DNA of 38,594 bases from Candidatus Woesearchaeota archaeon (GTDB taxonomy: Archaea; Nanobdellota; Nanobdellia; Woesearchaeales; GW2011-AR9). The stretch lies in the NCBI GenBank assembly GCA_018302605.1, contig JAGVZN010000011.1:1-38594 (forward strand). The letters are read 5' to 3'. The notes under the pieces are model-generated. The model made no database searches, was not told the origin of the DNA, and was given only the letters and a program-made list of their open reading frames with translations. This document shows, piece after piece, positions 926 to 20,858 of this stretch. Numbering within the stretch: the first letter of the stretch is position 1; each line of letters opens with the position of its first letter. The position numbers were made by a program, and so were the translations under genes.

Positions 926-2623
926 ATGGACTTTTATCAGGAACTATTTCAGGAATTGGAAGATAAAACTCTTCCTGAACTCTCTCTCACCAAATTGAAG
1001 CGGGCTCTTGCTCTGAAGCACCGGCTCAAGACAATTCCCTCGAATATCAATATCCTTCTTCATGCCCCCATTAAAGACATTCCTTTCCTCAAAAAGAAAC
1101 TGATCACCAAGCCTGTCCGGACCATTTCCGGCGTTTCACCCGTTGCCATCATGACCGCCCCGAGCAGATGTCCGCACGGCAAGTGCACTTTCTGTCCGGG
1201 TGGGTTAAACTCTCCCTGGGGAGACGTCCCCCAATCGTATACTGGCCATGAACCGGCGACGATGCGCGGCATGCGCAATCATTATGACTCCTATCTCCAG
1301 GTGATGAATCGTCTGGAGCAATATGTCCTGCTCGGCCATACTTTTGACAAGATTGAAATTATCGTCATGGGGGGAACATTTCCGGCGACAGAAAAAGCTT
1401 ATCAGGAGGATTTCATCACGGGCTGTTTTCAGGCAATGAATGATTTTTCCGAGTTGTTTTTTGATGAAAGTAAAGGATTTGCCTACATCAAGTTTAAAGA
1501 ATTCTTCCAGCTGCCCGGCGGCTTGCATGACGAACAGCGGATTAACAACATCAAAACAAAATTACTTGCGTTTAAACAGCGAAAGAAAACAACACTCGAA
1601 GAAGAACAGCAGAAAAATGAAACTGCCCAGATCCGCTGTGTTGCCCTGTGCATCGAAACCAAGCCCGATTGGGGCTTTCTTGAGCAAGGCAATGAGATGC
1701 TCCGTCAGGGCTGTACGCGTGTCGAATTGGGCATCGAATCGGTCTATGATGATGTCCTGCAACACGTCCATCGCGGCCATACGACTGAGGATTCCAAAAA
1801 ATCAATCCAGATCCTGCGTGATCTGGGCTTTAAGATCAATTTCCACTATATGCCCGGACTTCCGTTAACCGACCGGGAGCGGGATATCGACGGCATGAAA
1901 CAGCTTTATGCTGATCCTGATTATCGTCCGGACATGATCAAGTTTTATCCAACGATGGTCGCGCCAGGAACAGCATTATTTCAGCAATGGAAACAAGGCC
2001 AATTTCTACCTCTAGATACGAAAGAAGCAGCTGAACGCCTTGTGGAAATCAAAAAGATCGTTCCCGAATACTGCCGTATCCAGCGCATCCAGCGCGATGT
2101 TCCTACCAAATACTGGGAAGCGGGTGTCGGCCTGACTAATTTTCGGCAACATATCCATGAGAACTATGTCTTTCATTGTCGCTGCATCCGCTGCCGCGAA
2201 CCGAAAGGGAAGGACGTTAATTGGGGAAATATTCAGCTTAAAGTTATCGAATACGAAGCCTCTGGCGGAACAGAATTTTTCATCGCTGCGGAAGATCAGA
2301 GCAACGACATTATTCTCGGCTTCTGCCGCCTGCGTTTTCCCTCACAATTTCTCCGGCCGGAAATAACCCCTACGTCAGCATTGATCCGTGAATTGCACAT
2401 CTATGGCACGGCCACGGCGATTGGTGACGACGGTCTCGTCCAACATCATGGCTGGGGAAAGAAATTGATTGAGAGAGCGGAAGAGATTGCCCGGCAAAAT
2501 GGAAAAGATAAGATAATTATCATCTCTGGTGTTGGCGTGCGGCAGTATTATCAGGAGAAATGCGGGTATCGGCAAGAAGGGCCATATATGGCTAAAGAAA
2601 TTTCACTGAATAGTGGCAAATAA
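926..2623 (+). CDS. elp3: Elp3 family tRNA uridine(34) modifying radical SAM/acetyltransferase
   Basis: The 565-residue product has the length and order of archaeal Elp3: a radical SAM domain followed by a GNAT acetyltransferase domain. Elp3 uses S-adenosylmethionine and acetyl-CoA to form carboxymethyl-type C5 side chains on wobble uridine. The iron-sulfur motif is CPHGKCTFC at residues 82-90 (CX4CX2C), followed by PGG and YTGHEPATMR as in the family. The C-terminal domain keeps RELHIYG, the acetyl-CoA-binding HHGWGKKL stretch and SGVGVRQYY, close to eukaryotic Elp3. The ATG at 926 is the first plausible start; an AT-rich TATA-like stretch near 892-904 lies upstream. No other Elongator subunit is present, as is normal for archaea. 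Function is confidently assigned from family knowledge. Confidence 0.95.
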   Translation: MDFYQELFQELEDKTLPELSLTKLKRALALKHRLKTIPSNINILLHAPIKDIPFLKKKLITKPVRTISGVSPVAIMTAPSRCPHGKCTFCPGGLNSPWGDVPQSYTGHEPATMRGMRNHYDSYLQVMNRLEQYVLLGHTFDKIEIIVMGGTFPATEKAYQEDFITGCFQAMNDFSELFFDESKGFAYIKFKEFFQLPGGLHDEQRINNIKTKLLAFKQRKKTTLEEEQQKNETAQIRCVALCIETKPDWGFLEQGNEMLRQGCTRVELGIESVYDDVLQHVHRGHTTEDSKKSIQILRDLGFKINFHYMPGLPLTDRERDIDGMKQLYADPDYRPDMIKFYPTMVAPGTALFQQWKQGQFLPLDTKEAAERLVEIKKIVPEYCRIQRIQRDVPTKYWEAGVGLTNFRQHIHENYVFHCRCIRCREPKGKDVNWGNIQLKVIEYEASGGTEFFIAAEDQSNDIILGFCRLRFPSQFLRPEITPTSALIRELHIYGTATAIGDDGLVQHHGWGKKLIERAEEIARQNGKDKIIIISGVGVRQYYQEKCGYRQEGPYMAKEISLNSGK

Positions 2624-3216: not shown

Positions 3217-3978
3217 ATGACACTCTATCTTATCGGCCTGGGTTTGGGAACAGAAAAAGACATCACCCTGCGCGGTCTGGAAGCGATCCAGCGTTGTGAA
3301 AACGTCTATTTAGAAAATTATACTTCTCTTCTTCAATGTTCTGTTGCCGATATGGAAAAGATCTATGAACAGAAGATCATTCCTGCGGATCGAGAAATCT
3401 CTGAACAAGGCGCAGAGCGGATCATTCACGAAGCAAAGACCAGCGATGTCGCTTTTCTCGTGATCGGTGATCCGTTCTCGGCGACAACACACATTGAATT
3501 GTTTAAATTAGCCCGAAAAAATAATATTACCGTCGAAGTCATTAATAACGCATCTGTTTTAACCGCGGTCGGCATTACCGGTCTACAACTATATAAATTC
3601 GGCAAGACTACCTCAATTCCTTTTCCCGAAGATCATCCTCACTTAGAAACACCATACAACGTCATCAAAGAAAATCAATCACTTGGTCTTCATACATTGT
3701 GCCTGCTTGACCTCCAGCCGGACAAAAATCAATTCATGACTGTTCCGGAAGCAATTATGATTTTGGAGAATATCGAACAGCGCAAACAAGAAAAAATAAT
3801 TCACAATAATCTGATTGTTGTTGGTTGCGCCCGTCTTGGATCAAAAGAGTATATCATTAAATCAGGAACCATTCCGGAACTAAAGTCTATTGACTTTGGC
3901 AAACCTCCCCAGTGTTTAATCATTCCCGGAAAATTACATTTCAGCGAAGAAGAGATGCTGAGGTTGTGGAAAAAATAA
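3217..3978 (+). CDS. dphB: Diphthine synthase
   Basis: The 253-residue product matches archaeal DphB, the methyltransferase that uses S-adenosylmethionine to methylate the modified histidine of elongation factor 2 during diphthamide formation. It starts MTLYLIGLGLGTEKDITLRG and carries LENYTS, VIGDPFSATTH, GITGLQLYKFGKTTSIPFP and LLDLQPDKN, all characteristic of this tetrapyrrole-methylase-like family. The length is normal (about 250-265). The start is supported by alignment of the N-terminus with the family; only a weak ribosome site precedes it. The next gene begins two bases after the stop, so the two are probably co-transcribed. Confidence 0.95.
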   Translation: MTLYLIGLGLGTEKDITLRGLEAIQRCENVYLENYTSLLQCSVADMEKIYEQKIIPADREISEQGAERIIHEAKTSDVAFLVIGDPFSATTHIELFKLARKNNITVEVINNASVLTAVGITGLQLYKFGKTTSIPFPEDHPHLETPYNVIKENQSLGLHTLCLLDLQPDKNQFMTVPEAIMILENIEQRKQEKIIHNNLIVVGCARLGSKEYIIKSGTIPELKSIDFGKPPQCLIIPGKLHFSEEEMLRLWKK

Positions 3979-7177: not shown

Positions 7178-7645
7178 CTACTTTCTGATTCTTACAATTC
7201 TCCCATTATTCGCTTTCTGTAATTCCTCTGCCGCTATTTTGATCAGGGAGTTCTCCGAACCGCCCCCACTGTACACCATTTCTTTTTCCATCACTCGCGG
7301 ATCGATCAAAAACATGGCCGGATATCCAAATGAAGGGGTTCCCCCGCAGGGGTAGCCGGTTCTTTGTAGAATCTCTTCCGGCGTTGCAACCCGTATCTTT
7401 TCACTATTCAGCGCTTTCGCAACATTTGTTGTACTAACCCGATCTTCTCCTTTAACAATGGCAACAACGAGGTTATCACTTGAAGTGATGAGACAAATGT
7501 TTTTCACAAAATCATCGCTATTTGCATTTGCGGTCAGTGCAGCTTCTTCAACTGAATGACAAGATTGTTTAAAACTCAAATGTTCCGCTTTGATGTTGTT
7601 TTCGTCAATATACCATTTCAGTTTATCTTCGTATCGACTCATCAT
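7178..7645 (-). CDS. YbaK/ProX-type aminoacyl-tRNA deacylase-like protein
   Basis: The 155-residue product has the fold signature of the YbaK/ProX/INS editing family, which hydrolyses mischarged tRNAs such as Cys-tRNAPro or Ala-tRNAPro. Visible marks are HLSFKQSCHSVEEAA (residues 22-36), the substrate lysine region IVKGEDRVS, and the TGYPCGGTPSFGYP loop (96-109). The length is normal for a free-standing member. The exact substrate cannot be told from sequence alone. The start MM at 7645 is nine bases from the end of the upstream acidic protein gene, so the two genes are probably one transcript. Confidence 0.88.
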   Translation of the reverse strand: MMSRYEDKLKWYIDENNIKAEHLSFKQSCHSVEEAALTANANSDDFVKNICLITSSDNLVVAIVKGEDRVSTTNVAKALNSEKIRVATPEEILQRTGYPCGGTPSFGYPAMFLIDPRVMEKEMVYSGGGSENSLIKIAAEELQKANNGRIVRIRK

Positions 7646-18092: not shown

Positions 18093-20858
18093 ATGAAGAA
18101 ATTAAATAAATCCTCTCCGACGATCGTCACCGCCGCCCTGCCTTATGCCAACGGCCCCATCCATATCGGGCATCTTCTGGAATATATCCAAGCCGATGTT
18201 TATGCCCGTTTTTTGAAGCTGACTGGACACGATGCCCTTTATATCTGTGCTTCAGACATGCATGGCACGCCAATCGAGGTCAATGCGCAAAAAGCGAAAA
18301 TCAAGCCGGAAGTCTTTGTCGAACAATACTGGAAAGAACATCAAGAGGACTTCCAGTCATTTCTCATCCAGTTCGATAACTATTACAAAACTCACTCCCC
18401 AGAAAATAGGGAGCTTGCAGAGCTATTTTACAAAACTCTGCAGGAAAAAAGCCATATCTATCGCCAGAAGATCAAAGTGATGTATTGCGATAACTGCCGG
18501 CGCTCTCTGCCCGATCGTTATGTCAAAGGAACCTGTCCGCATTGTCATGCCCCTGATCAGTATGGCGACATCTGTGAAAAATGCGGCAGTGTCTTAAAGA
18601 GTGTCGATTTACTGAAACCATATTGTTCTATCTGTCAAAATACGCCGCGGCCGAAAGAGAGCGAACATTATTTCTTCAAGTTGAGCGCTTTCTCCAAGCA
18701 GCTCCAAAAATGGGCTGCATCGAAAGAAGCAAATCTTCAGCCAGAAGTCCGCAACTGGCTTCAAGGCTGGTTTGAAAAAGGCATGGAAGACTGGTGCATC
18801 TCGCGTGATGCTCCCTATTTCGGCTTTGAGATCCCCAATTCCAAAAAAGAAACGGGGGAAATAAAATATTTCTACGTCTGGCTGGATGCGCCGATCGGCT
18901 ATATCTCCTCGACAAAAAATTATTGCGACAAATCCGGCGGTGATTGGAAAGAGTATTGGTACAAAGGACAGATTATCCATTTCATCGGCAAGGATATCGC
19001 CTATTTCCATCTCCTGTTCTGGCCGGCGATGCTGATGGACATGGAGATTACGCTTCCTCGGGTGAATATCCACGGATTTATCACCGTCAATGGTGAAAAG
19101 ATGAGCAAGAGCCGGGGCACTTTTCTCACGGCAAAAGATTTTCTCAAGTCGTACTCTGCCGAAGCCTTGCGTTTCTATTACGCCAGCCATCTTGACCGCA
19201 GTGTTGTTGACGTTGATCTTCATTTCGACGAATTGAAAGCAGTGGTCAATAATGTCCTTCTCGGCAATCTCGGCAATTTCTGCTATCGCACTTTGATCTT
19301 TACTGAAAAAAATTATGGAAAGATCACCGCCATCGCCGAGGAAACGGATCTGCAGATCCACGTCGGCGAACTGCTCGATGAAATCCGCCGGAATTATGAA
19401 GTCCGTGAATTCAGATCTGCCGTCAAAAATATCCTCAAAATTGCTGATTTAGCCAATGCCTACTTCCAGAAAGCAGAACCGTGGAAAACAAAAGAATCTG
19501 CTGAAACAAAAGAAGCGCTCGGCTTCTGTGTCAATCTGGCGCGCAATCTGGCGATCATTGCCAGTCCAATCTTGCCGACATTCAGTCAGAAGATCTATGC
19601 TGCTCTTGCTGAGAAGAAACCTCTCTTTTGGAAAGATATCTCTTTTACCTGGAAAGGAAAAGTCGCTAAAGTAGCTGTGCTTGTGGAAAAGATTGAGGAA
19701 GTAAAACAATTGAAAGTTGCTCGTGAGGTTAAAAATATCGAATATTTGATCAGTCCTGAAATCGAGCAATTTGGTGTTAAAGTAAGAGTCGCTCAACTAA
19801 CAGGATTAACAATTAAGAAGAAGCATGAAGGAATCGAAAAGCTAAAAAGTGAAGTGCAGAAAAATATAATTTGCGATGAGCGTAAAGATATTCTTGATGA
19901 GTATCATAGCATTAATGAGAAAATGAAGTTAGATGATAAACGCTATCCTAATGCGGTTACTAATCTCATCTCACTGATTAAACAAAAAGGAAAGTTACCC
20001 CAAATTAATACGGTTGTTGATGTTTACAATGCTCTTTCTGTTGAAAGTGGCCTTGCTATGGCAACTCACGATATCGATAAAATCAATGGCAAAATTGTTA
20101 TCCGTCTCTCTAAAGAGGAAGAAGAGTTTACCGCTCTTGATGGAACGAAAGAGAAGTTAAAGGGTGGCGAAGTAATCTATGCCGATAATACTCTCATTCT
20201 CGGACGCTTCTCCAAACAGTGTCAACATACAATCACGACTAGCGAGAGCAAAGAGGTTGTTCTTATCGGCTTTGGAAATCTCAAGATTTCAGATGAAGAG
20301 ATGGATAAATCATTCCAACGAACATGTGAACTCATTACAAAATTTAATGGCGGTGAATTTAAGATTTTACATAATTTGAAGAATGCAATTTCTACTACCT
20401 TCCCTCTTCATCTTGCCGTCGGTCTGGTTGAAGAAGTGAACGACCATCCCGACGCCGATTCGTTGTACCTCCTGAAAGTTAATTTTGGTCCATTAGGCAT
20501 CAAGCAAGTTGTCACCAGCTTGAAGAAAATCCTGTCCAAAATGGCGTTTGCGAACAAGAAATTAGTCTTCTGCGTCAATCTCAAAGCAACTAAATTCCGC
20601 GGTGAAATTTCTGAGGCGATGATCTTAGGCGTTGATCACGACGACACGACGACTTTACTAGAAATGGCTTCATCTCTTCCTGGAGAAACTGTCGTTCCCG
20701 AAAGTATGGCTGCAAACACAAACCAAATCTCTTTTGCCGAACTCTCTCAAGTCGGACTGATCGTCAAAAATAAAAGAATTGTCTTTGAACAGAAGCCGTT
20801 GGGAACGGGGAAAGAAATGATCAAAATCAATGTTAAAGATGGGTTACAGGTGCACTAA
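18093..20858 (+). CDS. metG: Methionyl-tRNA synthetase with inserted B3/4 domain and C-terminal tRNA-binding domain
   Basis: The 921-residue product charges tRNAMet. Residues 1-536 are a complete archaeal-type MetRS: HIGH at 24-27, two CxxC zinc knuckle pairs (CDNC, CPHC, CEKC, CSIC), KMSKS at 336-340 and the helical anticodon-binding domain. Residues about 770-880 form an EMAP-II-like tRNA-binding domain (LVEEVNDHPDADSLYLLKV). Between them lie about 230 residues resembling the B3/4 domain known from PheRS beta editing and free-standing B3/4 proteins: INTVVDVYNALSVESG, ATHDIDKINGKIVIRLS, LKGGEVIYADNTLILGRF. The coding DNA of this insert (19,680-20,390) looks AT-richer than its surroundings. 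A proofreading or tRNA-recognition role is inference. The diiron gene follows after two bases. Confidence 0.93.
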   Translation: MKKLNKSSPTIVTAALPYANGPIHIGHLLEYIQADVYARFLKLTGHDALYICASDMHGTPIEVNAQKAKIKPEVFVEQYWKEHQEDFQSFLIQFDNYYKTHSPENRELAELFYKTLQEKSHIYRQKIKVMYCDNCRRSLPDRYVKGTCPHCHAPDQYGDICEKCGSVLKSVDLLKPYCSICQNTPRPKESEHYFFKLSAFSKQLQKWAASKEANLQPEVRNWLQGWFEKGMEDWCISRDAPYFGFEIPNSKKETGEIKYFYVWLDAPIGYISSTKNYCDKSGGDWKEYWYKGQIIHFIGKDIAYFHLLFWPAMLMDMEITLPRVNIHGFITVNGEKMSKSRGTFLTAKDFLKSYSAEALRFYYASHLDRSVVDVDLHFDELKAVVNNVLLGNLGNFCYRTLIFTEKNYGKITAIAEETDLQIHVGELLDEIRRNYEVREFRSAVKNILKIADLANAYFQKAEPWKTKESAETKEALGFCVNLARNLAIIASPILPTFSQKIYAALAEKKPLFWKDISFTWKGKVAKVAVLVEKIEEVKQLKVAREVKNIEYLISPEIEQFGVKVRVAQLTGLTIKKKHEGIEKLKSEVQKNIICDERKDILDEYHSINEKMKLDDKRYPNAVTNLISLIKQKGKLPQINTVVDVYNALSVESGLAMATHDIDKINGKIVIRLSKEEEEFTALDGTKEKLKGGEVIYADNTLILGRFSKQCQHTITTSESKEVVLIGFGNLKISDEEMDKSFQRTCELITKFNGGEFKILHNLKNAISTTFPLHLAVGLVEEVNDHPDADSLYLLKVNFGPLGIKQVVTSLKKILSKMAFANKKLVFCVNLKATKFRGEISEAMILGVDHDDTTTLLEMASSLPGETVVPESMAANTNQISFAELSQVGLIVKNKRIVFEQKPLGTGKEMIKINVKDGLQVH

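Follow-up and report, generated by a model that had tools for sequence, protein, structure and literature searches.

Post-transfer editing in cis, inside the synthetase itself, is a feature of IleRS, LeuRS, and ValRS (CP1), ThrRS, AlaRS, and ProRS (INS), and the folds of these editing domains are unrelated to that of B3/4. To our knowledge no post-transfer editing domain is known for MetRS, LysRS, or TrpRS. The B3/4 domain is an editing fold of the PheRS beta subunit, where the substitution G318W abolishes editing (PMC8262941), and it is also found in stand-alone proteins, among which CtdA has been proven by experiment to be a canavanyl-tRNA(Arg) deacylase (PMC10018355). Editing by MetRS is described as pre-transfer and directed at homocysteine (PMC11004401). 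Extra domains fused into MetRS are reported from Mycoplasma penetrans; these are N-terminal nucleotidyltransferase-like and aminotransferase domains, with no editing domain among them (PMC13215547).

The MetRS considered here is encoded in a stretch of 38,594 nucleotides from a Candidatus Woesearchaeota archaeon (the whole of the DNA analysed, hereafter the window) and carries a B3/4 domain between its anticodon-binding and C-terminal tRNA-binding domains. As read from its sequence the protein would be a cis-editing aminoacyl-tRNA synthetase in which B3/4 has a new partner. The domain and the enzyme are each known already, while their joining and the sorting of such domains by amino acid over six synthetases were not found described in open-access sources. 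The sequence-only reading of this DNA had called the protein no standard MetRS, and the literature agrees with it so far as no paper on a B3/4 domain in MetRS was found in open-access sources, where most subscription papers are missing; nothing relevant was found there on COG3382, and the paper on unusual architectures in Leishmania contains no MetRS of the B3/4 kind.

The metG Locus

In addition to the domains of Table 1, Pfam delimits tRNA-synt_1g (residues 11–401) and the anticodon-binding domain (415–539) in the metG product. The MetRS family models NF001100 (700 bits, cut-off 587) and TIGR00398 (539 bits, cut-off 336) are both passed, and with HIGH and KMSKS intact the protein belongs to MetRS. 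In the source genome (1.16 Mb, 90% complete) metG encodes the sole MetRS, the remaining class I matches being much weaker and located in different long frames.

Several genes related to translation are found in the metG region. The window contains a YbaK/ProX-type stand-alone aminoacyl-tRNA editing protein (7178–7645, minus strand; PF04073, E 1e-24), together with an Elp3-like tRNA-modifying enzyme (926–2623, plus strand) and a diphthine-synthase-like gene (3217–3978, plus strand), the latter two assigned by sequence alone. Elsewhere in the same genome, on contig C12, a stand-alone B3/4 protein of a separate, family-specific clade is encoded beside a carbamoyltransferase-like gene (L002, 1513–2208, minus strand).

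Table 1: Features of the metG gene in nucleotide positions of the window.
Feature	Position	Strand	Basis or remark
metG, MetRS with inserted B3/4 domain, 921 aa	18093..20858	+	one unbroken frame; Pfam
MetRS catalytic core and anticodon-binding domain	18093..19679	+	Pfam, NCBIfam
HIGH, residue 24	18162-18173	+	
KMSKS, residue 336	19098-19112	+	
B3/4 module, residues 547-761, complete stand-alone-type (CtdA-like) fold, predicted	19731..20375	+	profile of relatives; model
PF03483 (B3_4) match, residues 622-724	19956..20264	+	Pfam, E 6.1e-20
H659-D660, invariant in MetRS B3/4 clade	20067..20072	+	alignment
K708-Q709, clade-invariant; aligned with E. coli PheT F317-G318 and CtdA R174-Q175	20214..20219	+	
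G728-N729, invariant in MetRS B3/4 clade	20274..20279	+	alignment
C-terminal domain	20397..20855	+	tRNA_bind (EMAPII-like OB fold) match, residues 774-859

Extent and Fold of the B3/4 Module

The insert scores 72 bits against PF03483 (gathering cut-off 29.3; E 6e-20), which makes it a member of the B3/4 family, and stand-alone B3/4 proteins (about 230 amino acids) can be aligned over their entire length with residues 547–761. An AlphaFold2 model of the module made with 61 relatives reached pLDDT 95.5 and pTM 0.91. When this model was compared with the PDB by Foldseek, CtdA was at the top (9mkl, 9f7e; TM 0.90, E 7e-16) and bacterial PheRS-beta chains ranked below it (TM 0.60–0.69), these matches together with the model identifying the B3/4 fold; the profile search gave the same order (CtdA E 2e-31, PheRS E 6e-14). 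According to the model the insert is a whole stand-alone-type B3/4 protein, nearer to CtdA than to the B3/4 domain of PheRS beta.

The claim of a B3/4 domain in this MetRS, made earlier from the letters only, is therefore borne out by the PF03483 search and by structure prediction (pLDDT 95); the motifs quoted for it are present, and its proposed extent, 19680–20396, was correct to within the two linkers that flank the module at 19731–20375. The relatives named at that time, PheRS beta and free-standing proteins, fared unequally, since stand-alone proteins of the CtdA kind are the closest ones and the PheRS-beta domain is not.

The insert shares with CtdA the whole-domain fold, the RQ/KQ + T motif, and the E and D of the “GE...D” strand, whereas CtdA, a bacterial protein in its own right, acts on tRNA(Arg) and is 17–18% identical to this part of a synthetase. 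The GGEN motif of CtdA is absent and reads (T/A)HD in the insert, H659-D660 of the MetRS clade being aligned at its E-N. With PheRS beta the insert has in common the Pfam match (E 6e-20) and the editing fold; the structural match is lower (TM ~0.65) and the host is of class II, in contrast to the class I MetRS. Archaeal stand-alone B3/4 proteins of COG3382 type equal the insert in length and fold, and four of them (G084, G150, G414, G433) fall within the MetRS clade, but they are separate genes and the majority belongs to other clades.

In the full-length MetRS model (pLDDT 90), residues 538–543 and 764–767 form hinges of low confidence, as would be expected of a tethered domain, and the pTM of 0.62 means that relative domain placement is not to be interpreted.

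Conserved Residues and Selection

Among 24 domains of the MetRS clade the invariant residues include P636, N639, D643, Y645, N646, H659, D660, G666, K708, Q709, T713, G728, and N729. Three of these are nearly private to the clade: H659 occurs otherwise only in two TrpRS-borne copies, N729 only in one TrpRS-borne copy, and Q709 only in CtdA and two stand-alone proteins. In the insert the pocket residues known from PheRS have changed, with glutamine and alanine at the positions of E. coli PheRS G318 and H265, respectively. By alignment, the clade-specific conservation is placed at or near the putative editing pocket. No catalytic residue common to all B3/4 domains is known to us from which hydrolysis could be deduced.

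Comparison with the congener G002 demonstrates that the B3/4 domain (pN 0.14, pS 0.73, the latter saturated) is under purifying selection comparable to that of the C-terminal domain (pN 0.17, pS 0.68).

Distribution and Insertion Site of MetRS-Borne B3/4

Locus reading in surveys and one scan of archaeal genomes identified 25 MetRS-B3/4 genes. The window's class contains 21 of the 25, three of which (G147, G307, G580) are cut by contig ends; the other four are from other archaea, among which are a Diapherotrites assembly and archaeon GW2011_AR10 with its complete chromosome (L082). An exact degenerate pattern scan of contigs gave at least 14 matches, a lower bound that carries no information on bacteria. 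Being found in independent genomes, one of them a closed chromosome, MetRS-B3/4 is not an assembly chimera.

Three forms occur: body-B3/4-EMAPII, as in the window; body-B3/4; and body-B3/4 with a separate small EMAPII-like gene nearby (G580). The congener G002 has a MetRS of identical architecture with 81% identity across the whole protein, while another congener, G001, has a plain MetRS in which the linker reads KIES-KPKEGQKTNSTSDQSGNATVASSSHPL-FPAHLAVGL against KIEE-(B3/4)-FPLHLAVGL in the window. In the checked MetRS loci without B3/4 the EMAPII-like domain follows soon after the anticodon domain, with the exception of L140, which runs off its piece.

In the first sample B3/4 was present on MetRS in 4 of 24 family members, and the presence is patchy even inside the window's genus. 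The family's MetRS bodies with B3/4 do not form a clade (AU p ~1e-52), although their four B3/4 domains do (100/98), and the MetRS body tree requires at least seven changes between the fused and plain states; because of this discordance the B3/4 domain must have been acquired, dropped, or swapped independently of the body, and a single vertical origin along MetRS within the family was rejected. Within the window's genus, fused and plain MetRS have C-terminal domains that group together, which leaves B3/4 alone as the variable piece and led to the rejection of a cassette in which B3/4 and the C-terminus move as one.

The insert is AT-richer than its flanks, as the sequence-only reading had noticed, with GC3 of 0.32 against 0.53 in the core and 0.50 in the C-terminus. 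The later acquisition deduced from this did not hold up: a dip in the same direction is found in far-separated type-A fusions of quite different GC content (L069, L073, L074, L078, L081), and members of the MetRS B3/4 clade come from many families. Since the dip is common to deeply diverged relatives, AT-richness is no mark of recent transfer; it was not seen in C-terminal B3/4 fusions without EMAPII. Codon usage, translation speed, or amino-acid composition may account for the dip.

B3/4 Domains on Other Synthetases

The survey covered 288 genomes of the window's order, and non-MetRS long frames with B3/4 were named by family models and frame reading. Class II LysRS carries a C-terminal B3/4 in G109 and G153 (L083, L086), and class I LysRS carries it at the N-terminus in G201 and G286 and at the C-terminus in G371 (L089, L090, L136). 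N-terminal copies are present on ProRS in G192, G253, and G261 (L087, L088, L091) and on TrpRS in G172, G192, and G227 (L092–L094), the TrpRS copies being detected by a profile of relatives and missed by Pfam. Archaeal PheRS beta has an extra C-terminal B3/4 in G086, G192, G227, and G270 (L060, L084, L085, L138). Genomes with two or more kinds of fusion include G192, G227, and G270.

In the IQ-TREE phylogeny of 78 B3/4 domains all MetRS-borne copies fall in one clade of 24 rows, including two stand-alone proteins (97/89); after addition of five rows the clade has 29, with four stand-alone members and zero outsiders (SH-aLRT 88). The 25 fused genes thus carry B3/4 of a single clade in independent genomes, while the MetRS bodies beneath belong to three deeply separate groups: A, which includes the window and is NF001100-like, B, which is NF008900-like, and C, which groups with L140 and L144–L147 at 100. 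The ProRS-, TrpRS-, and PheRS-borne domains are each monophyletic (100/100). Lys-borne domains make two groups, one pairing the B3/4 of G109 LysRS-II with the C-terminal B3/4 of G371 LysRS-I as sisters (100/93), and one elsewhere on the tree with the LysRS-I group L064, L089, and L090 and the LysRS-II domain L061. Class I and class II LysRS yield the same product without being related. When the 41 fused domains are considered by themselves, their tree calls for 4 changes of partner amino acid, as few as five states allow, against 13 or more in 300 shuffles, and for 11 changes of partner scaffold type. This sorting and the cross-class LysRS pair indicate that the B3/4 domain follows the aminoacyl-tRNA and not the carrier protein.

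Stand-alone members of the MetRS clade have neighbourhoods of their own. In G150 (L140, 5428–10499) the genes for such a protein, a methyltransferase-like protein, a MetE-like protein, and a plain metG stand in a row, B3/4 lying about 2 kb upstream of metG with the MetE-like gene in between. In G433 (L194, 5720–6872) and G414 (L195, 5253–6454) the stand-alone gene has a neighbour in common, a small conserved gene encoding about 165 amino acids.

We incline to the view that DPANN archaea possess a roaming B3/4 cis-editing module in amino-acid-matched groups (Met, Lys, Pro, Trp, and extra Phe), which would be joined to, or placed beside, the matching synthetase whatever its class or type.

Proposed Function

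The reading that we favour, with a probability of about two in three, is that B3/4 serves this MetRS as a tethered, catalytically active deacylase, a true post-transfer editing domain for mischarged tRNA(Met); proofreading was also the role suggested by the sequence-only reading, and we infer it as the likeliest. MetRS would charge tRNA(Met), at times with a non-cognate amino acid; the acceptor end, kept close by the anticodon-binding and C-terminal tRNA-binding domains, would be handed to the flexibly linked B3/4 pocket, and this pocket may hydrolyse the ester by analogy with PheRS on Tyr-tRNA(Phe) and CtdA on canavanyl-tRNA(Arg). The likeliest targets would be methionine look-alikes that lack the thiol for the thiolactone route used by MetRS against homocysteine. 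Norleucine, a methionine analogue chargeable by MetRS and without a thiol for cyclisation, is an example, and its choice as substrate is a guess. The origin of the module was probably a free protein matched to tRNA(Met), which in-frame fusion then attached to MetRS, either in this one interdomain linker or C-terminally. Speaking for editing are the CtdA-like fold, the single B3/4 clade on three types of MetRS body, the sorting by amino acid, the clade-wide invariants, the purifying selection, and the G150 neighbourhood with its MetE-like gene and plain metG. Speaking against it are the changed PheRS pocket residues, the unfixed domain placement in the full-length model, and the fact that most relatives, including a congener, manage without B3/4 on MetRS. 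The further suggestion that the domain replaces a trans-editing factor is not needed, as the genome keeps its stand-alone B3/4 protein and the window has the YbaK-type one.

A non-catalytic appendage that binds tRNA or plays a structural part, raising tRNA affinity, appears improbable, even though appended domains of this sort are frequent in synthetases, an affinity tether would be compatible with the flexible linkers of the model, and the C-terminal EMAPII-like domain already has that role. The clade-wide invariants, unlike those of other B3/4 clades, and the strict partition by amino acid point to aminoacyl recognition, whereas a generic binder needs neither amino-acid-specific clades nor sister domains on both LysRS classes. 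Still less probable is the clearing of Met-tRNA(non-Met), methionine put on wrong tRNAs by MetRS itself: it would require discrimination by tRNA and leaves unexplained why the fold is also fused to LysRS, ProRS, TrpRS, and PheRS, although stress does relax MetRS tRNA specificity in several organisms, including the archaeon Aeropyrum pernix (reviewed in PMC11415595).

The rank of CtdA as best structural match and the occurrence of B3/4 on six different synthetases within one archaeal class would also suit a general trans-editing factor, acting for instance on canavanyl- or other analogue-charged tRNAs and anchored to any handy synthetase; we regard this as quite unlikely, since its partners would be mixed on the domain tree instead of sorted (4 changes against 13 or more in shuffles) and the MetRS clade has H-D in place of the CtdA GGEN. 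A chance fusion, assembly artefact, or recently acquired passenger, which the AT-rich insert and patchy presence might suggest, can hardly be reconciled with 25 genes from independent assemblies, a closed chromosome among them, with strong purifying selection and with the same AT dip in far relatives.

Conclusions

If the insert is indeed a tethered deacylase, MetRS, LysRS, and TrpRS would in these archaea have a post-transfer editing domain, and the known cis-editing systems would be enlarged by one module that is sorted by amino acid among six kinds of synthetase from class I and class II. The evolution of editing domains would then track the aminoacyl-tRNA instead of the enzyme. The absence of the module in some congeners raises the question of its reason, and it becomes testable which non-cognate amino acids are a threat at codons for Met, Lys, Pro, and Trp in archaea with small genomes.
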